A stretch of DNA of 64,000 nt. It comes from Pseudoclavibacter sp. AY1H1 (GTDB lineage Bacteria; Actinomycetota; Actinomycetes; Actinomycetales; Microbacteriaceae). The stretch spans positions 1 to 64,000 of the forward strand of contig NZ_PSXX01000003.1 in assembly GCF_002931055.1 (NCBI RefSeq), given 5' to 3'. Shown here in pieces: positions 1 through 15,311 of the stretch; position 1 is the first letter of the stretch; each line of letters starts with the position of its first letter. Both the position numbers and the translations under genes were made by a program. The notes under the pieces are model-generated. The model worked only from the letters and a program-made list of their open reading frames with translations, had not been told where the DNA came from and made no database searches.

Positions 1-867
1 ACGCATGACCGCCACCACCCCAACGGCCAGCCGCTTCTCCCGGGTGCGCTTGGGGACGACGATCGGCGACCCGGTGATGGGGTCTTCGAGGATGTGGACG
101 GGGTGCTCGTACACCTGCGAGATGAGCTCAGCCGTGAGCACGTCGGCGGGCGGCCCGTCTGCAACGATGCGGCCGCGGCTGAGGAGCGCGATGCGGTCGG
201 CGTAGGCGGCGGCGAGGTCGAGGTTGTGGACGATGATGACGACGGCGCATCCGGTGCTCGCGTAGCTGCGCACGAGGTCGAGCACCATCTCCTGATGCTT
301 GATGTCCATAGCGGCCGTCGGCTCGTCGAGGAGCATGACCGAGGCGGTCTGGGCGAGCACTCGCGCGAGCGCGGCCCTCGCGCGTTCGCCGCCGGACAGT
401 GACGGGTAGTGGCGGTCGGCGAAGCGGTCGATGTCGGTGCGCCGCATCGCGCCCGCCGTGATGAGGTCGTCGCGGTCGCGCTCGCTGACCTGCTGCCAGG
501 GCGCGCGGCCCATGTCGACGACCTCCTCGACCGAGAACGGGAAGGCGATGTCGACCTGCTGCAGGAGCACCGCGCGGCGCATGGCGAGCTCGGTGTTGGT
601 CCAGGCGTAGCTGGGGAGGCCGTCGATCTCGACGGTGCCGCTGCGCGCATCCACGTCGGCCGTGATCACATTGATGAGCGTCGACTTGCCGGCACCGTTC
701 GGGCCGACGAGGGCGAGCACCTCCCCGGCGCGGATGTCGAGGTCGAGCCCCTCGAGCACGGTGCGCTCGCCGAAGTCGACGCTCACGTCGCGCACGGAGA
801 GCACCACATCGCCTGGCGCTGTGGCGCGCGGCTTGCGGATGGGGTTCCTGAGGATGGATCCGATCAC
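1..867 (-). CDS. hmuV: Haem ABC transporter ATP-binding protein HmuV (3' end outside window)
   Basis: This is the ATPase subunit that energises haem import through the adjacent permease. The reading frame stays open for 289 codons to the window edge, so the C-terminus is missing, although the visible length already covers a full HmuV/FecE-like domain. A Walker A motif GPNGAGKS, an LSGGERARAALARVLA signature and a LLDEPTAAMD Walker B are visible. The GTG start at 867 overlaps the permease stop as GTGA, the typical coupling in this operon. A second in-frame GTG lies two codons upstream. The substrate assignment comes from the HmuT and HtaA neighbours; by itself the ATPase could serve haem or siderophore uptake. 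Confidence 0.88.
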   Translation of the reverse strand, partial: MIGSILRNPIRKPRATAPGDVVLSVRDVSVDFGERTVLEGLDLDIRAGEVLALVGPNGAGKSTLINVITADVDARSGTVEIDGLPSYAWTNTELAMRRAVLLQQVDIAFPFSVEEVVDMGRAPWQQVSERDRDDLITAGAMRRTDIDRFADRHYPSLSGGERARAALARVLAQTASVMLLDEPTAAMDIKHQEMVLDLVRSYASTGCAVVIIVHNLDLAAAYADRIALLSRGRIVADGPPADVLTAELISQVYEHPVHILEDPITGSPIVVPKRTREKRLAVGVVAVMR

Positions 868-2060
868 GACCACGCACCGCCCTTGGCCCGGCTGCGCCGG
901 ATGAGGTAGAAGAAGAACGGCCCGCCGATGAGCGAGGTGAGCATGCCGATGGGGAGGTCCGCGTATTCGACGAGGGTCCTCGCGCCGAGGTCGGCGATCG
1001 TGAGCAGCAGAGCGCCGCCGAGCACGGAGCAGAGCAGCAGCGCCCGGTGGGACGGGCCGATGATCATGCGGATGATGTGCGGCACGACGAGCCCGACGAA
1101 GGCGATGATGCCGGCGAAGGCGACGGCGGCCGAGACGAGGAGGGCGACGTAGATCATGACCAGCAGCCGCACGCGCTCGACGTTGACGCCGACGTGGCGG
1201 GCCGCTTTCTCGCCGAGCGACAGCAGGTCGAGCTGGCGGCCGATGCCGATGGCGAGGATGCACCCGACGATGATGAGCGGCGCGACGAGCCAGACCTGCT
1301 CCCAGCGCGAGCCGTTCATGCTGCCCATCTGCCAGAACACGATCTGCTCGCGCGCCTGCGTGGGAGCGCTGAAGGTGATGAACGCGATGAGGGCACCGCA
1401 GACGGCGTTGACGGCCACTCCCGTGAGGATGAGCGTGATGACGTCGGTGCGCCGGCCTGAGCGGGACAGCGAGTAGACGACGAACGTCGTGATGAGGCCG
1501 GCGACGAACGCGAACGTCGGCGTCGTGAAGGGACCGAGGAACGTGAGGCTGAAGAGAATCGAGAAGCTCGCGCCGACTGCCGCGCCGGCCGAGACACCGA
1601 CCGAGCCTGGCTCGGCGAGCGGGTTGCCGAAGATGCCCTGCATGAGCGCGCCGGCGACGGCGAGCGCAGCGCCGACGAGCACGGTGAGCACGAGTCGCGG
1701 GAAGCGCACCTCCGCGAGCGCTGCAGCCCCGAACTCGTGGCTCGGGCCCGGCAGGGCGTCGATGCCGACCTGGTTGAGGAGGAAGCCGAGCACCTCGAGC
1801 GGCGGGATGTAGAGCTGGCCGATCATCGCCGACACGAGGCAGCCCGCGATGAGGAGGATCGTGAGCACGGCTGCGAGCAGCGACGCTCGCGCCTTCTTGG
1901 TCCGGGGCGGCGCATCCTTCGGCTCGGCGACCGGCTCGGCGCGTCGCCGTGGCCGCTCCTGTGCCCCGTCGAGGCGGCGGCGGCGCTGGGGCTGCTGGGG
2001 TGCGGCCGGTGGGCTGGTGTCTGGCGGTGTTGCCGTTCTCACGTGTGCATCTCTCATCAT
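864..2060 (-). CDS. hmuU: Haem/iron ABC transporter permease HmuU (FecCD family)
   Basis: This 398-aa FecCD-type integral membrane permease forms the translocation channel for haem with HmuV. It has a proline- and arginine-rich cytoplasmic N-terminal extension of about 55 residues, then the usual multi-helix BtuC fold. Family signatures include PLAEPGSVGVSAGAAVGAS near residues 148-166 and a conserved GLVVPHIIRMIIGPSHR segment near residue 330, which contacts the ATPase. Its ATG overlaps the HmuT stop (ATGATGA), and its stop overlaps the hmuV GTG. The long N-terminal extension could instead reflect an over-called start, but the overlap with hmuT favours the start given. Confidence 0.92.
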   Translation of the reverse strand: MMRDAHVRTATPPDTSPPAAPQQPQRRRRLDGAQERPRRRAEPVAEPKDAPPRTKKARASLLAAVLTILLIAGCLVSAMIGQLYIPPLEVLGFLLNQVGIDALPGPSHEFGAAALAEVRFPRLVLTVLVGAALAVAGALMQGIFGNPLAEPGSVGVSAGAAVGASFSILFSLTFLGPFTTPTFAFVAGLITTFVVYSLSRSGRRTDVITLILTGVAVNAVCGALIAFITFSAPTQAREQIVFWQMGSMNGSRWEQVWLVAPLIIVGCILAIGIGRQLDLLSLGEKAARHVGVNVERVRLLVMIYVALLVSAAVAFAGIIAFVGLVVPHIIRMIIGPSHRALLLCSVLGGALLLTIADLGARTLVEYADLPIGMLTSLIGGPFFFYLIRRSRAKGGAWS

Positions 2061-3286
2061 TCGCCCGTTCCGGTGCTGGCGGCGGGGTCCGCTTCTGGCA
2101 CGTAGGCGAGGTCGGGCGCGTAGATCGCGGTGCCGAGTGCCGCGAGGACGGAGGCGGTGCGGGGGCCGAAGCTCATGACCTCGTAGTCGCTCATATCGAC
2201 GATGCGCTTGTTGGCTCCTGCTGGGGTCTGCCCGATGCCGGGCAGCTGGACGGCCTCGTCGATGCCGCCGACGGAGGCGAGGCCGAGGGTCATGACGATG
2301 ATCACGTCGGGGGCGGCACGCACGAGCGCTTCCGCGTTGGTCGGCGACATTCCGGCGAAGCCGACCTCGGTCGCGACGTCACGCGCCCCGATGCTCTGGA
2401 TGATCGAGTCGGCGCCCGACCCTGCCCCGAACCAGTAGTAGACGCTGCCGCGCAGGTAGAGGAATACCACTCGTGGCTTCTTGTCCGGGTCGGTGGGCGC
2501 CATCGTGCCGAGCTGCTGGATGGTCGTGCCGATCTCGGCCTGCGTGCGCTCGGAGAGCTTCTCCCCCAGTGCCGGCACGCCGAGGGCATCCGCCACGAAC
2601 TGGATCTGCGGGGCGACGCCGTCGACGCCGTCCTCGTAGGCGATGGGCACCATGACGACGGGGATGCCCGCCTGCCGCAGCTGCAGCTGCACGTCGTACG
2701 GCCCGATGGAGGCGTCGGTCACGACCACGGTCGGGGCGAGCTGCAGGATCGACTCGGCGTTGAGCTCGTGCCCGTTCTGCGTGACGAGCGGCAGTTGCTC
2801 ATTGCCGGGCATGAGCTTCGTGATGTCGGTGGCGGTGTCGCGCCCGATGAGGTTGCAGCCGAAGCCGAGGCCGATGACGGCTGCGGCGAGGCCGCCGTTC
2901 TGGTTGATGGCGAGGATGCGCGTCGTGTCGGTCACGGTGGTCGTGGCGCCGTCGGAGCTCGTGAACGTCGTCGGCAGCTGCTGCACGGCGGTGGCCGCGT
3001 CGGTGACGGGGTTGATCGCCGCGGTCTGCGTGTACGCGGTGGTCGGGCCGGCGATGCTGCGCGGCTCCGGCAGCTCCGCGGAGGTGACCTGCGGGAGCAC
3101 GGGGGCCACGGGGTCGGCCTGCACTGGCTGCGAGACGCACTGCTCGTTGCCTGCGCCGTTTGCGGTGCCGATGTTGTGGAACCCGTTGACCCAGAGCACC
3201 GAGACGACGACCACGGCGAGCGCTGCCCAGCCGGCGCGACGGATCGTCGAGCGGCGGAAGCGGCGGAGCGTGCGTGGCAGTGACAT
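2057..3286 (-). CDS. hmuT: Haem ABC transporter substrate-binding protein HmuT
   Basis: This 409-aa protein is a helical-backbone (TroA/BtuF-type) binding protein that would hand haem to HmuUV outside the membrane. A hydrophobic N-terminal segment at residues 19-33 follows an arginine-rich start. There is no clear lipobox, so it may be anchored by an uncleaved helix. H173 in NGHELN and Y283/Y284 in SVYYWFG sit where HmuT homologues place their haem-ligating His and Tyr; this correspondence is by family pattern only. A GAGGA ribosome site precedes the ATG. It is the first transporter gene after the DUF916 surface protein. Confidence 0.88.
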   Translation of the reverse strand: MSLPRTLRRFRRSTIRRAGWAALAVVVVSVLWVNGFHNIGTANGAGNEQCVSQPVQADPVAPVLPQVTSAELPEPRSIAGPTTAYTQTAAINPVTDAATAVQQLPTTFTSSDGATTTVTDTTRILAINQNGGLAAAVIGLGFGCNLIGRDTATDITKLMPGNEQLPLVTQNGHELNAESILQLAPTVVVTDASIGPYDVQLQLRQAGIPVVMVPIAYEDGVDGVAPQIQFVADALGVPALGEKLSERTQAEIGTTIQQLGTMAPTDPDKKPRVVFLYLRGSVYYWFGAGSGADSIIQSIGARDVATEVGFAGMSPTNAEALVRAAPDVIIVMTLGLASVGGIDEAVQLPGIGQTPAGANKRIVDMSDYEVMSFGPRTASVLAALGTAIYAPDLAYVPEADPAASTGTGE

Positions 3287-3346
3287 GGGTTCCTCGGTCG
3301 TGTGTCGTCAGGTCGTGGATGCGCGTGGATGCGCGCTCTGGTCGGC

Positions 3347-4792
3347 TCAGCCGGCGCGCCCCCTGCGGCGGAGCAGCAGGATGATGCCGGCGGTCAGCGC
3401 GAGGGCGCCGACGCCGAGGGCGATCGCGAGCGTCTCCGTGCCGGTGCTGGCGAGTCCCGCGCCTCCGCCCGCCGCCCCGGTTCCCGGCCCGATCCCGGTG
3501 CTCGCTCCTGGGCTGAGCGCCGGCGCGATGCTCTGACCGGTGCTCGGAACGGTCGTCGGCGCTGCGGTACTCGTCGGGGTGGGCGCGACCGTCGGCGCCG
3601 GGATGGTCACCTCGACGATGCCCGACGGGGCGGTGGGGGCCGGCTCCGCGACGGCGGGCGTCGGGCTCCAGATGCCGGTGGCCAGGGCGAGGGCGATCCC
3701 GGCGATGACCGCGAGCACCGCGCCTCCCGCTTGGCCCCCAGTCCGGGGAGGGGCGAGCCGCTCGGCGCCCGGCGCCGCCTCGGAGTCGTAGCCGGCCACG
3801 AGGAGATCGAGCCGACGGCGACGCCAGAACCAGAAGACGATGCCAGCCGCGGCGACCAGCAGCAGGACGCCGAGGATGACGAGCGACCAGGGCAGAGCGA
3901 ACGCCGAGAGGTCGGCCGTGACGGCGACGGGCACGTCCGTGAAGGCTCCGACGGGCTGCAGGTACACGGTGAGGGCACCGGTGAGCGGACCGATGGCGCC
4001 CGTCGTGATCTCGCGCGTGATCGTGACCGCCGATCCGGGGAGCAGCTCGGGGATCTCGCCGCCGGTCATGGCGACTCCGGCGGCCCCGCCGATCCCGCTC
4101 AGGCGCAGATCCTCGAGCGACGAGAGCCGCACGTTGCCGGTGTTCACGAGCTCGTAGCTGACGGTGGTGGTGCCGCCGCCGAAGGGGTTGACGCCAGCGG
4201 CACCCCAGTCGGTCGCGAGGCTGCGGATCTCGGCGGTTGGCGCGAGCTCTCCGCTCACGCGCATGTCGATGCGCAGCCCGAGGCGCCGCTCGACCTTGAC
4301 CTGGTCGGTCGAGTCGGCGGGGAGGAGCGAGGCGACGATCGCGGCGGAGTGGTCGCCTGGCGTCGCATCCGCTGGCACCGTGAGGGTGAACGGCACGTCG
4401 ATACTCGCCCCCGGTTCGAGGGAGACCGAGCCTGTGCCGGGGGCGACCCAGGTGCCCGCATCCACCGACGGCTCCCCGTTCTCGAGGATGTCGACGGCGC
4501 CCGTCGCGGTCGTGAACGCGTCGGCCGCGTAGATCGTGAGCTCGAGCGCGCCCGGCCCGGTGTTGGTCACGGTCATGGAGTCGGCGATGACGTCGCCCGG
4601 GTTGACGTCGTAGGTGAAGTTGGGTCGCCCAGAGCCCCGGTCGCCGTCGACCGTGTCGATGCTCCACGCGGGCGGCTGCGTCGTGTCAGCCTGCGCCGCG
4701 GTCGGCGCGACGAACGACAGCAGCGCCAGCAGCGAGGTCGCGAGAACGACGGATGCTGTGGCGCAAGTGCGGAGACGGATGGGGAGAGCCAT
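3347..4792 (-). CDS. DUF916 (WxL-interacting) surface protein with C-terminal LASTG sorting-like signal
   Basis: A signal peptide (residues 1-35, ending near AAQA) leads into a DUF916/WxL-protein peptidoglycan-binding domain at about 42-180 and a second beta-domain to about 298. These are followed by a membrane helix at 299-322 with a WFWRRRR stop-transfer. Unusually, the protein continues through a second hydrophobic stretch (357-375) ending PAVA-EP like a signal peptide. A Pro/Thr-rich stalk follows, then LASTG (447-451), a third helix and RRRGR. LAxTG is the motif class read by actinobacterial class E sortases. The protein lies directly downstream of an HtaA protein with a WxL-like tail, suggesting that it docks that protein to the wall. 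The C-terminal quarter may derive from a second, fused gene. Confidence 0.82.
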   Translation of the reverse strand: MALPIRLRTCATASVVLATSLLALLSFVAPTAAQADTTQPPAWSIDTVDGDRGSGRPNFTYDVNPGDVIADSMTVTNTGPGALELTIYAADAFTTATGAVDILENGEPSVDAGTWVAPGTGSVSLEPGASIDVPFTLTVPADATPGDHSAAIVASLLPADSTDQVKVERRLGLRIDMRVSGELAPTAEIRSLATDWGAAGVNPFGGGTTTVSYELVNTGNVRLSSLEDLRLSGIGGAAGVAMTGGEIPELLPGSAVTITREITTGAIGPLTGALTVYLQPVGAFTDVPVAVTADLSAFALPWSLVILGVLLLVAAAGIVFWFWRRRRLDLLVAGYDSEAAPGAERLAPPRTGGQAGGAVLAVIAGIALALATGIWSPTPAVAEPAPTAPSGIVEVTIPAPTVAPTPTSTAAPTTVPSTGQSIAPALSPGASTGIGPGTGAAGGGAGLASTGTETLAIALGVGALALTAGIILLLRRRGRAG

Positions 4793-4938
4793 GTGGTCCC
4801 TTACGTGGGGCGCTCGCGGCGGGGCCGCGGCGGAGCGAGCGAGCGATGCGGAGGAGCGGGGTGCTGCGAGGGCGGATGCCCGTGCAGCTGAGTGCGAGTG
4901 CGCGGGAGCCTGGTGGGCTCCCGCGCACTCCTCGGCCC

Positions 4939-6342
4939 CTAGGAGATGGCCGAGATGGTGAGCGTGGCGGAGTACGCGCCCTGCTGCGTTGTGGTGGGGA
5001 CCGTCAGCGTGAGGTCCGCACCGAGCGTTGCGCTCGCGGCGGCGTTCGACGTCGCGAGGAGCTGCGCCGTGTTGAGACCCGTCGCCGCCGAGCCAGCGGT
5101 CACGTTCGCGGCGTTGCCCGCGATGAGCTCAGGAGCCCAGCCGAGGTTCGCAGCGGAGATCGAGTCGGTGCCGTTGCTGAAGTCGCTCGACTGGCCGGAG
5201 ACCGTCCAGCCGTAGGACGCGGTGCCGCCGGCACGCGTGTCCGTGACCGCGACGTCGCTGATCGAGCCGTTGGCGACGAAGGTGTCGCCGGTCTGGACCG
5301 CGGTGCCGAGGTCGGCGCCGTTCTGGTCAGCCCAGGCCCACGAGAAGGACCCCGTCTCGGGGTCGACCGGCGTCACTGCGGCTTCGGGGATGACAACCTC
5401 CACGTTGCCGTCCGGCGTGCCGGGAACCTCGGGTGCTGCGATCTCCGCGTAGCTCGCGGAGAAGCCCTTCGCGACCTTCTTCGGGTCAGCCGCGCCACCA
5501 GACGAGTACCAGTACGACGACTGGCCCGTCTTGGCGTTGAAGTCGACGAGCGACTGCGGGAAGGAGCCCCACGTCGCGGCCGTGGTGTTCTGCGGCGATC
5601 CGGCCGTGGTGACCTCGACGCCCAGGTAGTCGGGCGTCGAGACCTCGATGCCTGTCGCGGTGACGTCGACGCCGTCGAACGTCGCGAGGTCGATCGTCTC
5701 TGGTGCGATCGGGACCCACTGCGACATGTCCTCCATCGACGTGCCGTATCCGGAGGCGGTGCCCGTGAGCGTCCCGACTCCGTTCACGACGTCGAGCACT
5801 GGGTCGGAGACCGTCCAGTACGTCAGGCCGCCGTAGAAGACGATCGTGAAGTCGCCGTCCCACGAGATGGTGCCGGTGTCGGTTGCGGGGTTGACGGTTC
5901 CAGCGCCCGCCGCGAAGTTGACCCGGTTGTTGGTCGTCGAAGCGGGTGATGGGGAGACGGCCGCGCCTGCCGCGTTCTGGCACTTGGTGCCCCAGGTGGG
6001 GGCGATCTGCTCGCCGGCTGCGTTCGGCTTCGTGATGGTCACGTTGCCCTCCGCCGCCTTGTAGAAGCCGTCGGCTTCGGTCCAGAGACGGGAGGATCCC
6101 GTGTCGCCTGCCGTACCGGCGACGAGGAAGTTGCAGCCGCCGAAGTAGGCGCCGCCGCCGGTCTCGTCGTTGAGCTGCCACGAGAACGAGACGTTCTCGA
6201 CGGTTGCGTCGCCTTCCGCGGCTGACGCTGGTGCCGCGCCGAGGCCGAGGCCCGCCGCGATGAGGCCTGCCGCGGCGAGTGTCGCGCCACCGCGAGCCAG
6301 CACAGACGACCGACCAGCCGTCCGTTCTTGCACTGCTGTCAT
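4939..6342 (-). CDS. Secreted HtaA-domain haem-binding protein with WxL-like C-terminal domain
   Basis: The ATG at 6342 is chosen because AGGAG lies five bases upstream; a longer frame to 6378 has no such site. A signal peptide (1-42, ASAA) precedes one HtaA-like domain at about 50-300. It includes GTISWDGDFTIVFYGGL near 157-173, the characteristic strand pair, and two cysteines (70, 121) that could form a disulfide. Residues 315-467 form a separate beta-domain. Its pattern 'VTDTR...YGWTVSGQ...LGWAPEL...LTLTVP...YSATLTISAI' resembles WxL domains but lacks the second Trp. HtaA proteins in corynebacteria capture haem from haemoglobin and pass it to HmuT; that role is inferred here from domain and operon position. 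It is the first gene of the haem operon. Confidence 0.85.
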   Translation of the reverse strand: MTAVQERTAGRSSVLARGGATLAAAGLIAAGLGLGAAPASAAEGDATVENVSFSWQLNDETGGGAYFGGCNFLVAGTAGDTGSSRLWTEADGFYKAAEGNVTITKPNAAGEQIAPTWGTKCQNAAGAAVSPSPASTTNNRVNFAAGAGTVNPATDTGTISWDGDFTIVFYGGLTYWTVSDPVLDVVNGVGTLTGTASGYGTSMEDMSQWVPIAPETIDLATFDGVDVTATGIEVSTPDYLGVEVTTAGSPQNTTAATWGSFPQSLVDFNAKTGQSSYWYSSGGAADPKKVAKGFSASYAEIAAPEVPGTPDGNVEVVIPEAAVTPVDPETGSFSWAWADQNGADLGTAVQTGDTFVANGSISDVAVTDTRAGGTASYGWTVSGQSSDFSNGTDSISAANLGWAPELIAGNAANVTAGSAATGLNTAQLLATSNAAASATLGADLTLTVPTTTQQGAYSATLTISAIS

Positions 6343-6446
6343 GAGTTCTCCTGAGTAGAAGTCACGGCCCCCCGACACGCGCGCAGATGCGCGGCGAGTG
6401 CCGTGTACCGAAAGCCCTACGCTTGGGCGCCACCCGGTGGAACCGG

Positions 6447-6480
6447 TTAGGTAACGCTAAGTAAGGCAAGGGTTACCTTA
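6447..6480. promoter_or_regulatory. Candidate DtxR/IdeR-type iron operator pair between divergent haem and Pls-like genes
   Basis: The 34-bp element begins TTAGGTAAC and ends GTTACCTTA, nine-base arms in inverted orientation with one mismatch. It can be read as two overlapping 19-bp sites: 6447-6465 (TTAGGTAACGCTAAGTAAG) and 6462-6480 (TAAGGCAAGGGTTACCTTA). Each matches about 13 of 19 positions of the IdeR/DtxR consensus TTAGGTTAGSCTAACCTAA as I recall it. It lies about 105 bp before the HtaA start and about 115 bp before the NRPS start, so one regulator could control both directions. Binding is inference. Confidence 0.5.
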
Positions 6481-6595: not shown

Positions 6596-9500
6596 GTGCA
6601 ATCCCCCCTGGACCGATCCGCGGCAGCGCCCACGCCCCGCACGCTCATCGACGTGCTCACGGCCACCGTCGCCGCGCATCCCGACGCCATCGCGATCGAC
6701 GACGGCGACGCCCCGCTCAGCTACCAGGACCTGAGCGCCTACGTCTCGCAGACCGCGAAGCGGCTGCAGGATGCGGGAGTGCGGCGAGGAGACAAGGTCG
6801 GTGTGCGCCTCGTCTCGGGCACCAGAGAGCTGTACATCGCGATCCTGTCCGTCATCGCAGCCGGTGCCGCGTACGTGCCCGTCGACGTCGACGACCCCGA
6901 CGAGCGCGCCGTGCTCGTGTTCGGCGAGGCCAAGGTGCGAGGCACCATCCAGGGCGACGGCGAGTTCGTACTGGCAGCCGACGGCGAACCGAGCGCCCAC
7001 GCAGCCGTTCCCCTCTTCGACGAAGGCGCACCGCATCCGGAGAGCACGAGCCTCGCCGACCTCGAGAGCCCCCACCTCGACGACGACACCTGGGTCATCT
7101 TCACCTCGGGCTCGACCGGTGTGCCCAAGGGCGTCGCGGTCTCCCACCGCTCGGCTGCCGCGTTCGTCGACGCCGAGGCGAAGCTGTTCCTGCAGCACGA
7201 CCCCATCGGACCGGGCGACCGCGTGCTCGCCGGCCTCTCCGTCGCCTTCGACGCCTCCTGCGAGGAGATGTGGCTCGCCTGGCGCTACGGCGCCTGCCTC
7301 GTGCCGGCCCCGCGATCACTCGTGCGATCCGGCGAGGACCTCGGCCCCTGGCTCCTCAGGCACCAGATCTCGGTCGTCTCCACCGTGCCGACCCTCGCGG
7401 CGCTCTGGCCCAGCGAGACGATCGAACAGGTCAGACTGCTCATCTTCGGCGGCGAAGCCTGCCCGCTGGAGCTCACGCAGCGCCTCGTCGGCGAAGGCCG
7501 GGAGGTCTGGAACACCTACGGACCGACCGAGGCCACCGTCGTCGCCTGCGCCGCCCTCCTCGACGGCAGCGCCCCCATCCGCATCGGCCTGCCACTCGAC
7601 GGCTGGGAGCTCGCCGTCGTCGACGCGGACGGCAAGCGCGTCGCGGAAGGCGAATCCGGCGAGCTGATCATCGGCGGCGTCGGGCTCGCCCGCTACCTCG
7701 ACCCCGCCAAGGACGCCGAGAAGTACGCCCCGATGGAGAGCCTCGGCTGGGATCGCGCCTACCGCTCGGGGGACCTCGTCACATTCGAGGAAGCCGGCCT
7801 CGTGTTCCTCGGGCGTGCCGACGACCAGGTCAAGATCGGCGGACGACGCATCGAGCTCGGCGAGGTGGAGGCAGCCCTCCAGTCCGTCACCGGAGTCACC
7901 GGCTCGGCCGTCGCCGTCCGCACGACCTCCGCAGGCGTCTCGATCCTCGTCGGCTACATCGTCACCGGCACGGGCTACGAGCGGCAGCTCGCGCGCGCAG
8001 AACTCAGCGAGCAGCTCCCGAAGGCCCTCGTCCCGCTCCTCGCGGAAATCGACTCCCTCCCGACCCGCACCTCAGGCAAGGTCGACAAGAACGCCCTGCC
8101 CTGGCCGCTGCCGGGCGCCGATGATGTCTCCGGCGACCTCGACGGGCACGTCGCCTGGCTCGCCGAGCAATGGCAGGCCGTGCTCGGGCTGCCCGTCGGC
8201 AGCGAGGACGCCGACTTCTTCGACCTCGGCGGCGGATCCCTCTCGGCCGCCCAGCTCGTCACCCGAGTGCGCTCGCGCGTGCCCGAGTTCACGGTCGCCG
8301 ACGTCTACGACCACCCCCGCCTCGGCGCCATGACCGAGTCCATCAGCGAAGCGCTCGACGACGAGGACGACGTCATCGCCTCGTTCAGCACGCCCGGCCC
8401 CACGCCGCTCTCGGCGCGCATCCTGCAGATCGTCGCAGGCCTGCCCCTGCACATCCTGGCCGGCGCGCGCTGGGTCACCTACCTGCTCGCGGCGAGCGCG
8501 CTCCTGCAGCTCCTCCCCGGCTTCGAAGTGCTGCCGGACGCGCCGCTCTGGCTCATCGTCGTCCTGCTGATCGTCTTCGTGACCCCGTTCGGGAAGATGG
8601 CGATCTCGGTCGCCGCCGCGCGCATCCTCCTCTTCCGGCTCAGGCCCGGCGACTACCGACGCGGCGGCGCGACGCACATGCGCCTGTGGCTCGCCGAGCA
8701 GGTGGCCACGCAGATCGACGCCGTCGGCCTCGCTGGCGCACCGTGGGTCGTCTACTACGCTCGCGCTCTCGGCGCGAAGGTCGGCAACAACGTCGACCTG
8801 CACTCGCTGCCGCCCGTCACCGGCATGCTGCAGCTCGGAGACGGCGCGGCCATCGAGCCGGAGGTCGACCTCACCGGCTACTGGATCGACGGCAACCTCG
8901 TGCGCATCGGCGGCATCCGCATCGGCGCAGGGGCGACCGTCGGCGCCCGAAGCACCCTCGCCCCCGGCACCAAGATCGGGCAGGGCGCCGAAGTCGCCCC
9001 GGGGTCGGCGGTCTTCGGCAGGGTCCGCTCGGGCAAGAGCTGGGCAGGCTCCCCCGCCGTGCGCGTCGGAAAGGTGCGCGCGAGCGACTGGCCGGCGGAC
9101 CGTCCACCGCAGCCCGCCGGCTGGGCAGTCGTCTACGCCATCGCCTCGGCCGCCCTCGCGCTGCTCCCCCTGTTCGCGTTCGCCGTCGGCGGCGTCGTCA
9201 TCGCCGCCGGGATGCGCGGGGCCGGGACGCTCGGCGAGGCGACCCTCTCCGCGTTCGCCTGGCTCGCCCCCGCTGTCATCGCGGCCGGCATCACCTTCGC
9301 CGGCTTCGTCGTGCTCTTCGTCCGCCTCCTCTCGATCGGCCTGAGGGAAGGCACCCACCCGGTGCGCTCGAGGATCGCCTGGCAGGCCTGGTGCATCGAG
9401 CGCCTCCTCGACGCGGCCCGCACCACCCTCTTCCCGTTCTACGCGAGCCTCTTCACCCCCGTCTGGCTGCGGATGCTCGGCGCGAAGGTCGGGCGCGACG

Positions 9501-10534
9501 TCGAAGCCTCGACCGTGCTCCTGCTCCCCTCCATGACGCAGATCGACGACGGCGCGTTCCTCGCCGACGACACCATGGTCGCCTCCTACGAGCTGCATAA
9601 CGGATGGATGCGCATCGAACGAGCACGCATCGGCGCGCGCGCCTTCCTCGGCAACTCCGGGATGGCCGCCGCCGGGCACTCCGTCCCCCGCGACGGCCTC
9701 GTCGCCGTCCTCTCCGCAGCACCGGCGAAGGCCAAGCCCGGCTCATCCTGGCTCGGGTCCCCGCCCGTCCGCCTCCGCCGTGTCGCGGTCGACGGAGACG
9801 AGACGCGCACGTACAACCCGCCAAGGGCGCTGCGTGTCGCGCGTGCCCTCTGGGAGCTGTGCCGCATCGTGCCCGTCATCGTCACCTGCGGGCTGGGCCT
9901 CGGCGTCCTCCTTGGGCTCGCAGCCATCGAGACCGCCGTCGGCGTCGCCTGGAGCATCGTGCTCTCCGGATTCGTCCTCCTGGGTGCGGCCGCAGCATCC
10001 GCCCTCATCTCGACCATCGCCAAGTGGGTCATCGTCGGTCGCATCCGCGTCTCCGAGCAGCCCCTCTGGTCTAGCTTCGTGTGGCGAACCGAGGTCGCCG
10101 ACACCTTCGTCGAGATGGTCGCGGCGCCCTGGTTCGCGCGCGGAGCTGCAGGAACGCCGGCACTCGCGATGTGGCTGCGCTCCCTGGGAGCGAAGATCGG
10201 CAAGGGCGTCTGGTGCGACTCGTACTGGCTGCCGGAGGCCGATCTCGTCACACTCGGGGACGGAGCCACCGTCAACCGGGGATGCGTCGTCCAGACGCAC
10301 CTGTTCCATGATCGAATAATGAGCATGGACACCGTCACCCTCGAAGCAGGCGCAACGCTGGGACCACACAGCGTGATCCTCCCCGCCGCCACCATCGGCG
10401 CTCACGCCACCGTCGGGCCCGCGTCGCTCGTCATGCGAGGCGAGTCGGTACCCGTCGGCAGCCGCTGGAGCGGCAACCCGATCGGCCCCTGGCGGGCCCT
10501 GAAGCTGCGCGCCTACCAGTCGAAGGCTTCATGA
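6596..10534 (+). CDS. Pls/PosA-type membrane NRPS, probable poly/oligo-L-lysine synthetase
   Basis: This 1312-aa protein contains an adenylation domain (about 20-505; FTSGSTGVPKGV at 169-180, GRADDQVKIGGRRIE at 406-420). A carrier domain follows, with FFDLGGGSL and phosphopantetheine site Ser548. The membrane part has six helices (about 612-642, 650-677, 843-872, 889-914, 1090-1112, 1118-1148) interleaved with three left-handed-beta-helix-like soluble domains. Each soluble domain opens with LGAK(V/I)G, at residues 725, 961 and 1197, exactly 236 apart. This is the architecture and length of epsilon-poly-L-lysine synthetase. The substrate-pocket residues D219 A220 E223 S262 I283 G285 T307 V315 V316 K495 give DAESIGTVVK, close to the bacitracin lysine code as I remember it. 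No condensation or thioesterase domain is present. GTG start; the ATGA stop overlap couples it to the peptidase. Diaminobutyrate or beta-lysine remain possible substrates. Confidence 0.88.
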   Translation: MQSPLDRSAAAPTPRTLIDVLTATVAAHPDAIAIDDGDAPLSYQDLSAYVSQTAKRLQDAGVRRGDKVGVRLVSGTRELYIAILSVIAAGAAYVPVDVDDPDERAVLVFGEAKVRGTIQGDGEFVLAADGEPSAHAAVPLFDEGAPHPESTSLADLESPHLDDDTWVIFTSGSTGVPKGVAVSHRSAAAFVDAEAKLFLQHDPIGPGDRVLAGLSVAFDASCEEMWLAWRYGACLVPAPRSLVRSGEDLGPWLLRHQISVVSTVPTLAALWPSETIEQVRLLIFGGEACPLELTQRLVGEGREVWNTYGPTEATVVACAALLDGSAPIRIGLPLDGWELAVVDADGKRVAEGESGELIIGGVGLARYLDPAKDAEKYAPMESLGWDRAYRSGDLVTFEEAGLVFLGRADDQVKIGGRRIELGEVEAALQSVTGVTGSAVAVRTTSAGVSILVGYIVTGTGYERQLARAELSEQLPKALVPLLAEIDSLPTRTSGKVDKNALPWPLPGADDVSGDLDGHVAWLAEQWQAVLGLPVGSEDADFFDLGGGSLSAAQLVTRVRSRVPEFTVADVYDHPRLGAMTESISEALDDEDDVIASFSTPGPTPLSARILQIVAGLPLHILAGARWVTYLLAASALLQLLPGFEVLPDAPLWLIVVLLIVFVTPFGKMAISVAAARILLFRLRPGDYRRGGATHMRLWLAEQVATQIDAVGLAGAPWVVYYARALGAKVGNNVDLHSLPPVTGMLQLGDGAAIEPEVDLTGYWIDGNLVRIGGIRIGAGATVGARSTLAPGTKIGQGAEVAPGSAVFGRVRSGKSWAGSPAVRVGKVRASDWPADRPPQPAGWAVVYAIASAALALLPLFAFAVGGVVIAAGMRGAGTLGEATLSAFAWLAPAVIAAGITFAGFVVLFVRLLSIGLREGTHPVRSRIAWQAWCIERLLDAARTTLFPFYASLFTPVWLRMLGAKVGRDVEASTVLLLPSMTQIDDGAFLADDTMVASYELHNGWMRIERARIGARAFLGNSGMAAAGHSVPRDGLVAVLSAAPAKAKPGSSWLGSPPVRLRRVAVDGDETRTYNPPRALRVARALWELCRIVPVIVTCGLGLGVLLGLAAIETAVGVAWSIVLSGFVLLGAAAASALISTIAKWVIVGRIRVSEQPLWSSFVWRTEVADTFVEMVAAPWFARGAAGTPALAMWLRSLGAKIGKGVWCDSYWLPEADLVTLGDGATVNRGCVVQTHLFHDRIMSMDTVTLEAGATLGPHSVILPAATIGAHATVGPASLVMRGESVPVGSRWSGNPIGPWRALKLRAYQSKAS

Positions 10535-11889
10535 TCCTCTCGACGAGCGCAGATCCGCTGCCAGGCAACCCGTACACGCCGCAGAGCGGCGACGTCAGCA
10601 TCCGCGTCGAGCACTACGACCTGGCGCTCAAGTACCGGATGCAGAACAACCGCCTCTCGGGAACGGCGACGCTCAGCATCCGCACGGCGGTGCCCCTGAC
10701 CGCGTTCTCCCTCGACCTCGTGGGGCTCCGCGCGAGCAAGGTCAACGTGCGCGGCGACAAGCAGGCCCGCTTCAAGCAGAGCGACCGCAAGGTGAAGGTC
10801 ACGCTCTCGAAGCGGGTCGAGGCCGGCGACGCCATCACGGTCGAGATCATCTACGAGGGCGCGCCCCGGCCGCGCCGCTCCCGCTGGGGAGTCATCGGCT
10901 GGGAGGAGCTGGAGGACGGCATCATCGTCGCCTCGCAGCCCACGGGAGCCCCGACCTGGTTCCCCTGCAACGACCACCCGGCTGACAAGGCCAGCTACCG
11001 CATCCAGGTCGCCGTCGACAGCAACTACGACGTCGTCGCCACCGGGACCCTGAGCTCGAGACGCGCCTCAGGCGGGCTCACGACCTGGGTGTACGAGGAA
11101 GCGGCCCCCACTGCCAGCTACCTCGTGACCCTCCAGATCGGCCGCTACCAGCGCGAGGACGTGCAGCTCGCGGGAGTGGCGGGCCACCTCCACTACCCCC
11201 CTTCGCTCGCACGACGCGTCGGCACCGACTTCGCCGACCTCGCGAAGATGATGGCGACCTTCGAGCTGACGTTCGGTCCCTACCCGTTCGACACGTACGC
11301 CGTCATCGTCACGGCCGACGACCTCGAGATCCCCCTCGAAGCACAGGGCATGGCCATCTTCGGCGCCAACCAGATCGACGGCGCACGCGGCCAGGAGCGC
11401 CTCGTCGCGCACGAGCTCGCGCACCAGTGGTTCGGCAACAGCGTCGGCGTCGCGGGCTGGCAGCACATCTGGCTCAACGAGGGCTTCGCCTGCTACGCCG
11501 AGTGGATCTGGTCAGAGGCGAGCGGCGGACCGAGTGCCGACAGCCTGGCCCGGGGTGCCCGGGCGTCCCTGGCGAGGCTTCCCAAGGACCTGCTGCTCGG
11601 AGATCCGGGCGCCGAGGACATGTTCGACGACCGCGTGTACAAGCGCGGCGCGCTCACCATGCACGCCCTACGGCTCACGGTCGGCGATTCTGCGTTCTTC
11701 GAGATCCTCACGAGCTGGACTCAGGTGAAGCGCTTCTCGGTCGCCTCGACGGCTGAGTTCCTCGAGCATGCGGCGTCGCTGGCGCCGGATGCTCCGCTCC
11801 AGGAGCTGTTCGACGCCTGGCTCTATCAGCTCACGCTCCCCGACCTTCCTCCGCCTCCTGCGGCGAAGGTCACTCGCCGCTGGCGGTAG
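10531..11889 (+). CDS. M1-family zinc metallopeptidase, possible poly-lysine-trimming aminopeptidase
   Basis: The 452-aa protein has the gluzincin site HELAH (294-298) with third zinc ligand E317 in LNEGFA, after an N-terminal beta-domain. There is no signal peptide. The canonical GxMEN exopeptidase motif that recognises the free alpha-amino group, intact in the PepN of this same window, is replaced by LEAQGM at 269-274. It is also little more than half the length of PepN, lacking most of the C-terminal helical domain. Its ATG overlaps the synthetase stop, so the two are almost certainly co-translated. Known epsilon-polylysine-degrading enzymes of producers are zinc aminopeptidases, so a trimming or self-protection role is a reasonable inference. 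The final 20 bp overlap the convergent transferase gene. Confidence 0.85.
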   Translation: MILSTSADPLPGNPYTPQSGDVSIRVEHYDLALKYRMQNNRLSGTATLSIRTAVPLTAFSLDLVGLRASKVNVRGDKQARFKQSDRKVKVTLSKRVEAGDAITVEIIYEGAPRPRRSRWGVIGWEELEDGIIVASQPTGAPTWFPCNDHPADKASYRIQVAVDSNYDVVATGTLSSRRASGGLTTWVYEEAAPTASYLVTLQIGRYQREDVQLAGVAGHLHYPPSLARRVGTDFADLAKMMATFELTFGPYPFDTYAVIVTADDLEIPLEAQGMAIFGANQIDGARGQERLVAHELAHQWFGNSVGVAGWQHIWLNEGFACYAEWIWSEASGGPSADSLARGARASLARLPKDLLLGDPGAEDMFDDRVYKRGALTMHALRLTVGDSAFFEILTSWTQVKRFSVASTAEFLEHAASLAPDAPLQELFDAWLYQLTLPDLPPPPAAKVTRRWR

Positions 11890-12475
11890 CGGTAGCGGTA
11901 GCGACGGCAACCACGAATCGACCGTCGACGAGCGTCCGGCGGATGCGGTAGCGCGCATCCTCGCCCCTGATGCGCGCCAGGCCGTTCTCGCCGAGCTTCA
12001 CCTCGCTCGGGTCGACCCGGAGCCCACGGCCGTCGGCCTTGAGGACCGCTTCGATGGCCGTCCAGCGTTCGAGTTCTGCCACGGCGCCGGCACCCGTCTC
12101 GAGGCCGACCTCCTCGACGTCGAGCCCGAGGGCCGAGACACGGTCGCTGTCGGCGAGTGCGACGAAGACGGCGCTGCCGGTGTAGGAGATGCTCACGAGG
12201 ATCGGCTGCTCGCGCAGGCGCGGCTTGCCGTGCTCGGCGGAGCCGCAGTGCCCACACGATGCCTCGAGGCGGGGTGCGGGGTCGTCGAGGGCCGTGCTGA
12301 CGAGCAGCCGCCCGGTGAGGAAGGCATCCGCGCGGGCATCGTTCAGGTGAGCGAGGCGCTTCCGGTCATCCGCCGAGAGCACCCCGAGCGCCTGCCGTCG
12401 CTGGCGGGGGCTCAGGCTCGTCGCGTCTGCACTGAGGAGCCTCGTGCTGCCGAGTCGCAGCTCAGCGAGGTCCAC
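11870..12475 (-). CDS. Sfp-type 4'-phosphopantetheinyl transferase
   Basis: This 201-aa protein would attach the phosphopantetheine arm of CoA to carrier-domain serines, such as Ser548 of the neighbouring synthetase. The magnesium-binding motif GLDVEEV (D119, E121) and the WTAIEAVLKADGRGL motif (W138, E142, K146) are the two hallmark Sfp-family segments, and HGKPRL at 82-87 is the usual substrate-side motif. A GTG start with GAGG six bases upstream is preferred. It is convergent with, and overlaps the end of, the M1 peptidase gene, so it belongs to the same locus but a separate transcript. The C-terminus is a low-complexity VAVATATATASGE run. Confidence 0.88.
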   Translation of the reverse strand: MDLAELRLGSTRLLSADATSLSPRQRRQALGVLSADDRKRLAHLNDARADAFLTGRLLVSTALDDPAPRLEASCGHCGSAEHGKPRLREQPILVSISYTGSAVFVALADSDRVSALGLDVEEVGLETGAGAVAELERWTAIEAVLKADGRGLRVDPSEVKLGENGLARIRGEDARYRIRRTLVDGRFVVAVATATATASGE

Positions 12476-12606: not shown

Positions 12607-13884
<1,278 letters not shown>

Positions 13885-14009
13885 GAGGACCTCCTTCGCG
13901 GTCTGCCAAGACTAACCCGAACCACCGACATTGCCCGGATGGCCGCGCCAGGGGCACTCCCCCGGCGCGGCCATGGACATTGCAGCGTGTTCGAGTCGGT
14001 CGGATCGAA

Positions 14010-14681
14010 CTAGTCGATGATGACCGGCTCGGCGCCCTTGCGGCTCGTGAGCACCTGGTCGATGAGGCCGTACTCGAGCGCCTCGGCGGCCGACAGGATC
14101 TTGTCGCGCTCGATGTCGCGGTTGACCTTGTCGAGCGACGTGCCGGAGTGACGCGCCAGCGCCTCTTCGAGCCACGTGCGCATCCGCAGCACTTCCTGCG
14201 CCTGGATCTCGATGTCCGATGCCTGCCCCTGGCCGGCACCGCCGGTGGAGGGCTGGTGGATGAGCACGCGAGCGTTCGGCAGAGCCAGGCGCTTGCCTGG
14301 CTGTCCGGCCGCGAGCAGCACGGCAGCCGCCGACGCCGCCTGGCCGAGGCACACGGTGGAGACCTCGGGGCGGATGTACTGCATGGTGTCGTAGATCGCC
14401 GTCATGGCCGTGAACGAGCCACCGGGCGAGTTGATGTACAGCGTGATGTCGCGGTCCGGGTCCTGGCTCTCGAGCACGAGGAGCTGGGCCATGATGTCGT
14501 CCGCCGACGCGTCATCGACCTGCACGCCGAGGAAGATGATGCGGTCCTCGAAGAGCTTCGCGTACGGGTCCTGGCGCTTGTAGCCGTAGGCCGTGCGCTC
14601 CTCGAACGTCGGCAGGATGTACCGCGACGACGGGGTCTGGACGCCTGCCGGCGAGCCGCCGGTCAGAAATGGGGTGTTCAT
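14010..14681 (-). CDS. clpP2: ATP-dependent Clp protease proteolytic subunit ClpP2
   Basis: The 223-aa serine peptidase has a catalytic Ser in the [12 protein letters not shown] segment and the catalytic His in LIHQPSTGG, with the conserved INSPGG oxyanion loop. The extended N-terminus ([19 protein letters not shown]) is typical of ClpP2, the subunit that docks ClpX or ClpC in mixed ClpP1P2 complexes. It starts 15 bp after the clpP1 stop, indicating co-translation. Assignment as ClpP2 rather than ClpP1 rests on this N-terminus and second position in the operon. Confidence 0.96.
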
Positions 14682-14696
14682 ATGCTCTGGCTTTCC

Positions 14697-15311
14697 TTAC
14701 TCTGCCGACTCGGACGTGGACTCGGCGTCGCGCTTGGTGCCGCCGCCGCCCGTGACCTCGGTTGCCGAGGAACGGATGTGGTCGACGAACCCGTAGGCCA
14801 GCGCCTCGTCGGCGTTGAACCAGCGGTCGCGGTCGCCGTCCTCGTTGATCTGCTCGAGGCTCTTGCCCGTGCGCTGCGCCGTGATCGACGCGAGGCGAGC
14901 CTTCATGTCGAGGATCAGCTGTGCCTGGGTCTGGATGTCGCTCGCCGTGCCGCCGAATCCGCCGTGCGGCTGGTGCAGCAGCACTCGCGCGTTCGGCGTG
15001 ATGTAGCGCTTGCCCGGCGCACCTGCGGTCAGCAGGAGCTGGCCCATCGAGGCCGCCATGCCGATTCCCACGGTCACGATGTCGTTCGGCACGAACTCCA
15101 TCGTGTCGAAGATCGCCATACCGGCGGTGATCGATCCACCCGGCGAGTTGATGTAGAGGTAGATGTCTCGCTCAGGATCCTCTGCAGCAAGCAGCAGGAT
15201 CTTGGCGCAGATCTCGTTCGCGTTCTCGTCGCGCACCTCGGACCCGAGCCAGATGATGCGGTCTTTCAAAAGCCTGTCGAAGACGCTGTTCGGCAGTTGA
15301 ATATCAGCCAC
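14697..15311 (-). CDS. clpP1: ATP-dependent Clp protease proteolytic subunit ClpP1
   Basis: The 204-aa ClpP contains the catalytic Ser in [11 protein letters not shown], the His in LLHQPHGGF and the INSPGGSI loop. It is the first gene of the clpP1-clpP2 pair and would form the mixed tetradecamer with ClpP2. The C-terminal tail after residue 180 is Gly/Ser/Glu-rich ([18 protein letters not shown]), a small extension beyond the catalytic fold. The protein is cytoplasmic. Confidence 0.96.

Follow-up and report, generated by a model that had tools for sequence, protein, structure and literature searches.

A probable epsilon-poly-L-lysine locus in Pseudoclavibacter sp. AY1H1 and its recurring phosphopantetheinyl transferase companion

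The locus at positions 6596 to 12475 of contig NZ_PSXX01000003.1 of Pseudoclavibacter sp. AY1H1 very probably encodes the synthesis of epsilon-poly-L-lysine (epsilon-PL)—a degree of confidence that applies to its core of a synthetase and a peptidase. This reading builds on the family membership of the synthetase, its lysine-type pocket, the overlap of the two genes, the fold of a neighboring phosphopantetheinyl transferase (PPTase), and the co-occurrence of these genes across genomes. The kind of locus is already known, and a synthetase together with a peptidase is ordinary for this bacterial group. The recurring PPTase companion is the only less-described feature of the locus. The window, meaning the whole stretch of DNA analyzed, comprises the first 64,000 nucleotides of the contig, and all coordinates refer to it. 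The features are as follows:

6462..6480, no strand assigned: iron-box-like inverted repeat in the intergenic region common to the synthetase gene and the divergent heme genes
6596..10534, plus strand: probable Pls-type epsilon-poly-L-lysine synthetase, GTG start, 1312 residues (TIGR02353, 7wew, pocket code, carrier serine, C-terminal model)
Synthetase residues ~23-500: A domain
Synthetase residues 521-581: carrier domain, with Ser548 in LGGGS
Synthetase residues 610-1296: membrane/β-helix condensing region
10531..11889, plus strand: PldII-type M1 metallopeptidase, ATG start, 452 residues (Peptidase_M1 at 87.5 bits, HExxH)
11870..12475, minus strand: Sfp-type 4'-phosphopantetheinyl transferase by its model, GTG start, 201 residues (AlphaFold and Foldseek, motifs)

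As had been claimed in a preliminary description of this DNA, three ORFs are present, of which those of the synthetase and the M1 peptidase overlap by 4 bp (ATGA), and those of the peptidase and the PPTase are convergent with an overlap of 20 bp. The GC content by codon position is 0.72/0.52/0.91 for the synthetase, 0.66/0.49/0.91 for the peptidase, and 0.76/0.53/0.86 for the PPTase; hence, all three ORFs fit coding in their assigned frames. Around 11870-11889, where the peptidase gene and the PPTase gene share their 3' ends, the sequence contains short GCGGTA repeats. The PPTase gene is adjoined by clpX and two clpP genes on the minus strand (12607-15311).

The synthetase belongs to the Pls/PosA group. 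In the 1312-residue protein, a Pfam scan identifies an AMP-binding domain, a PP-binding domain, and hexapeptide repeats, the last with 45.5 bits against a cut-off of 27; Condensation and Thioesterase domains of the canonical kind are absent. The earlier statement that C and TE domains are missing is, hence, correct for the canonical domains; the C-terminal part, from approximately residue 610 onward, is the known Pls/PosA membrane region. It is matched by the Pls/PosA terminal-domain model TIGR02353 of NCBIfam with 712 bits (cut-off 423) over model positions 2-695 of 695. The top solved chain for the synthetase is 7wew, titled 'Epsilon-poly-L-lysine synthase' (642 bits, residues 2-508), and the PosA chain 8g95 scores 198 bits. 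In addition, the protein is 52% identical to a Streptomyces protein annotated 'epsilon-poly-L-lysine synthase Pls', the gene of which overlaps an M1 gene, again by 4 bp.

The alignment of C-terminal regions leaves out L027, which has a stop inside its excised region. The AlphaFold model of residues 610-1312 (pLDDT 81.6) was built on a 27-row alignment and consists of three pairs of long helices with β-strand regions between them. Taken together, the TIGR02353 match and the model give the three β-helix domains and six membrane helices typical of Pls/PosA proteins; by plain hydropathy, six separate clusters are not resolved, and those that exceed the threshold merge into four or five. The model agrees with the PosA model in print (PMC10522769). 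With Foldseek, the C-terminal region matches hexapeptide acyl/acetyltransferases, locally only, at a best E-value of 5.7e-5 and with query TM values of 0.09-0.15 among the matches listed.

The positions of the substrate pocket were placed by the motif numbering of gramicidin synthetase. They read DAESIGTVVK. Compared with the printed fragment of 7wew, the synthetase is 71% identical over 273 residues, with FDASCEEMWLAWRYGACLVPAPR as an unbroken identical stretch. Herein, the pocket residues D219, A220, E223, S262, I283, G285, T307, V315, and V316 are the same in both proteins, so that all nine readable positions are of the lysine type; the tenth residue, K495, falls beyond the fragment compared. 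The identical ten-letter pocket occurs in 109 of 116 rows (window plus loci), and the other seven are distant paralogues or fragments that are gapped at the pocket. According to PMC10522769, PosA has the pocket DMEHNGTVSK, in which position 2 is Met; the same position is Ala in lysine-activating members, and DGESISVVNK is cited for poly-β-lysine. The window synthetase departs from the PosA pocket by having Ala220 and Val316 instead. Because its pocket equals that of 7wew at the nine readable positions and differs from the PosA and poly-β-lysine codes, lysine is the best-supported candidate substrate of the A domain.

In a 32-row tree of C-terminal regions (28 of 102 Pls-clade rows and four of seven distant rows, with L149, L152, and L153 dropped), the window protein lies inside the 28-row Pls clade, which is split from the four distant paralogues by a branch with a support of 99. 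Within this clade, three Microbacteriaceae rows and an assembly labeled Propionibacteriaceae form a group with it, likewise with a support of 99. An earlier FastTree tree of 109 rows (102 Pls-clade and seven distant) does not show the Pls rows as one clade, which is taken to be due to three distant rows being fragments or very long branches. A check of the family placement had been proposed for the initial designation as Pls-like; the TIGR02353 score, the lysine-type pocket, and the position inside the Pls clade all bear this designation out. Since the order of the tree roughly follows taxonomy, the inheritance of Pls looks largely vertical, although Pls homologues are found on plasmid records, too. 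In 44 such records, a homologue spans 80% or more of the query; the matches listed include Rhodococcus, Arthrobacter, Kitasatospora, and mycobacteria, and one listed 'plasmid' of 11.9 Mb is probably a chromosome.

The second protein is an M1 peptidase, as originally named, with Peptidase_M1 found by Pfam. The M1 match was found in 106 loci, and in all of the 87 rows aligned, the HExxH motif at 294, Glu317, and Glu270 are kept. Glu270 is located 24 residues before His294, and by its spacing from the motif, as known from leukotriene A4 hydrolase, it is presumably the N-terminal-amine-binding Glu of GAMEN-type enzymes. The window peptidase is 44% identical to the product of the M1 gene that overlaps the annotated Streptomyces pls; in this comparison, that gene is a stand-in for PldII of S. 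albulus itself.

In S. albulus, pldII overlaps pls by 4 bp and forms one operon with it (PMC4361855). The 4-bp overlap in the window repeats this pattern and suggests that synthetase and peptidase form one operon. Among the enzymes that degrade epsilon-PL, PldII is described as the main one, and its translation is coupled to that of pls (PMC9223678), so that the polymer is the probable substrate of the window peptidase as well. PldII is reported to be located outside the membrane (PMC9223678), whereas a simple 19-residue scan detects no hydrophobic stretch in the window M1 protein. PldII is postulated to protect its own producer (PMC8117764). A role in trimming the chain is contested because earlier knock-outs left the chain length at 25-35, as reported in PMC9223678, while the repression strains of that same work yielded chains over 40. 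The preliminary description had the three genes make, activate, and trim a cationic polymer; this reading is supported as a whole, but trimming is an interpretation of PldII function on which print disagrees (PMC9223678).

The third protein is, judged from its predicted structure, an Sfp-type PPTase. By sequence, it stays below the cut-off of the Pfam model ACPS (20.2 bits, cut-off 25), which is matched by 22 of the 35 aligned members at E ≤ 0.01, and a sequence search returns no solved relative at E ≤ 0.1. The AlphaFold model (pLDDT 93.6, 35-row alignment) has Sfp (1qr0) as its top Foldseek match, with an E-value of 5.7e-9 and a query TM of 0.61. At E ≤ 0.001, 31 of 34 matches are titled PPTases, and the remaining three are titled 'Transferase' and come from mycobacteria. 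The model displays the two-half fold of Sfp, and single-half AcpS chains rank lower. It is, hence, the structural match that backs the earlier assignment as an Sfp-type transferase. In the GxDxE and WxxxEAxxK motifs, every residue is conserved in 38-42 of 45 PPTase rows, and Cys74, Cys77, His82, and Gly83 are invariant across 35 rows. The PPTase alignment leaves out four of 38 rows (L007, L012, L025, and L071), in which the model matched only in pieces.

The genome contains four PPTase-like places, the window PPTase included. Because of this, the idea that the window PPTase is the only one of the genome was rejected, and the PPTase next to the synthetase need not be the one that is used. One of the three other places belongs to a separate modular NRPS on contig C4 (L122, 10530-19957), which is encoded together with MbtH and has a thioesterase and carrier domains of its own. 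Compared with four relatives of the same genus (L117-L120), the window PPTase diverges more than its neighbors, being 57-63% identical, while the synthetases are 93% (92.5-93.4) and the peptidases 86-90% identical.

The proposal to compare the three-gene block across related genomes led to a link that recurs in the family of the window. A survey of related loci kept the best 80 of at least 593 candidates and, thus, describes the closest relatives. All 80 of these loci have an M1 match in the same orientation as Pls and at most ~2.3 kb downstream of it. Loci L123-L125 play almost no part in the comparisons. A PPTase is encoded near Pls in 38 of these best 80: Microbacteriaceae account for 27 of 31 loci, Micrococcaceae for nine of 10, Nocardiaceae for none of 26, Mycobacteriaceae and Tsukamurellaceae for none of three each, and others for two of seven. 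The PPTase gene is convergent and downstream in 37 of the 38 PPTase-bearing loci of this survey and upstream on the same strand in one (L029).

In the genus of the window, Pls matches exceed the cut-off in eight of 10 genomes, and in one of these eight the match is divided between two contigs. In the family, Microbacteriaceae, 80 of the 199 genomes sampled contain Pls and likely have the capacity to make epsilon-PL. In each of these 80, an M1 gene lies on the same strand beside a Pls copy, at a distance of 45-180 bases from where the Pls model ends in one copy. None of the 119 Pls-less family genomes has an M1 match as strong as these; one of them, G056, has a match at 1.9e-44. A match to the PPTase model occurs in every one of the 80 Pls-bearing and in nine of the 119 Pls-less family genomes, a count biased toward Pls genomes because the model was built from Pls neighbors. 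In 72 of the 80, no more than 6 kb separate the PPTase from a Pls copy—in 66 of these on the opposite strand—and the remaining eight comprise two at 7.6 kb, four on another contig, and two far away. Restricted to the M1-bearing Pls copy, the number within 6 kb is 71 because G080 drops out. G080, G142, and G194, all of one genus of the family, contain two Pls copies, of which the second is without an adjacent M1 match and is the one nearer to the PPTase. In G084, the region that encodes the Pls terminal domain (C1, 2188642-2190701) occupies two reading frames, so that either the gene is broken or an error was made in sequencing.

Across the phylum sample, TIGR02353 matches at E ≤ 1e-30 in 25 of 396 genomes, in 24 of them over the cut-off. 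With the window excluded, an M1 gene is found in 20 of 21 Pls-clade loci of this sample within flanks of ~1.5 kb. Among 14 control genomes, TIGR02353 exceeds its cut-off only in Corynebacterium glutamicum, where the introduced C. variabile gene had proved silent (PMC8117764).

In the most probable course of events, the PPTase would arm the synthetase with phosphopantetheine at Ser548, and the A domain would adenylate L-lysine and load it onto this arm. The membrane-embedded β-helix region would then link the lysines via their epsilon-amino groups, and the chain would exit the cell. The polymer would be degraded by the M1 peptidase, which is translationally coupled to the synthetase, most likely for the protection of its maker.

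The product could, alternatively, be another cationic homopolymer—of ornithine, diaminobutyrate, diaminopropionate, or β-lysine—since the Pls/PosA group spans several polymers, with PosA making delta-poly-L-ornithine (PMC10522769). This is improbable given that the pocket is neither that of PosA nor of the β-lysine type and bears the Ala at position 2 that marks lysine. Besides, the available text of PMC8117764 gives Pls a peptidase partner but none to three other synthetases, and an M1 gene is found beside none of the seven distant paralogues of the phylum sample, herein within flanks of only ~1.5 kb. Just as improbable, or slightly more so, is that no free polymer arises and that lysine is added singly or in short chains to a surface molecule, as D-alanine is in Dlt-like systems. 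The C-terminal β-helices do resemble acyl/acetyltransferases, if weakly and locally, the distribution is wide and roughly follows taxonomy, and the native product was not detected for C. variabile (PMC8117764). Yet the Pls of this non-streptomycete yields free epsilon-PL in S. coelicolor (PMC8117764), and the coupled gene in the window encodes a PldII-like peptidase. Epsilon-PL remains the preferred product. Counting against parts of its explanation are the C. variabile Pls that gave no polymer in its own host or in C. glutamicum (PMC8117764), the M1-less second Pls copies with a nearer PPTase in G080, G142, and G194, the missing hydrophobic stretch of the window M1 protein, the three other PPTase-like places of the genome, and the 42 of the best 80 loci (of at least 593) that have no such PPTase near Pls.

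These 42 loci, all 26 of Nocardiaceae among them, also speak for the PPTase being a mere neighbor beside the clpX-clpP region with nothing special to the synthetase, as do the other PPTase-like genes of the genome. Such an arrangement is somewhat unlikely, as the PPTase model matches every Pls-bearing family genome, including the eight in which it lies beyond 6 kb, and few Pls-less ones, a result that the bias of the model favors. It may tentatively be proposed that, in Microbacteriaceae and Micrococcaceae, the locus is a three-part unit with a dedicated PPTase that arms Pls only or best. If true, the lack of the right PPTase could be one cause, besides regulation, of silent transplanted pls genes. 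The PPTase is a partner enzyme worth including in transfers of pls genes to production hosts. The polymer is a food-grade antimicrobial, and the capacity to make it is likely present in the 80 Pls-bearing genomes among the 199 of the window's family.

Several known systems can be compared with the locus. The S. albulus pls-pldII pair shares with it an A-PCP-membrane synthetase, the lysine pocket (7wew), and a peptidase gene with a 4-bp overlap; the available portions of PMC4361855 and PMC9223678 mention no PPTase, whereas the window pair adjoins a convergent Sfp-type PPTase. By its published description, C. variabile Pls shares the domain order and the operon with a peptidase, but belongs to another group of Actinomycetota. 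Its product was confirmed in S. coelicolor, while epsilon-PL was not detected in C. variabile itself or in C. glutamicum (PMC8117764, 2021). Because this Pls is silent in both hosts, production cannot be concluded from the presence of a Pls gene. Acinetobacter PosA has the Pls/PosA group and the overall architecture in common with the window synthetase and differs in the pocket (PMC10522769). The clusters of Microbacterium, Agrococcus, and Leifsonia (PMC12067966) come from related bacteria and encode the same synthetase architecture; the text available for them does not mention the PPTase that the window has. The preliminary description overstated that such loci are little explored outside Streptomyces-like producers: Pls homologues of Microbacterium, Arthrobacter, Brevibacterium, Rhodococcus, and others were listed along with C. 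variabile in 2021 (PMC8117764), and epsilon-PL clusters of Microbacterium and Agrococcus followed in 2025 (PMC12067966). A word search of the main text of PMC7438953 finds no mention of the polymer. No link between PPTase and Pls was found in the literature searched, which is weak evidence of absence as most subscription journals lie outside its coverage.

Upstream of the synthetase, the window contains divergent heme-uptake-like genes of the hmuT/hmuU/HtaA type (128-6378), with FecCD permease and Peripla_BP_2 identified by Pfam and the HtaA-like match below the cut-off. The iron-box-like site has two mismatches to a consensus that we take to be of the DtxR/IdeR type, and it is the only site of the window with four or fewer mismatches. 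Because the divergent heme genes are accompanied by this site, iron control of polymer synthesis had been suggested; it was rejected, as heme genes and site are unseen beside Pls beyond the genus. Such a site occurs within 350 bp upstream of Pls in three of 87 other loci, all of the same genus, and HtaA-like genes are found near Pls only in the four same-genus loci L117-L120. Among the best 80 of at least 593 loci, there is one heme-gene match, 32% identical to the FecCD permease and 17.7 kb away (L020). The upstream heme genes are a local neighbor outside the polymer system, and the iron-box-like site probably belongs to them and not to pls.
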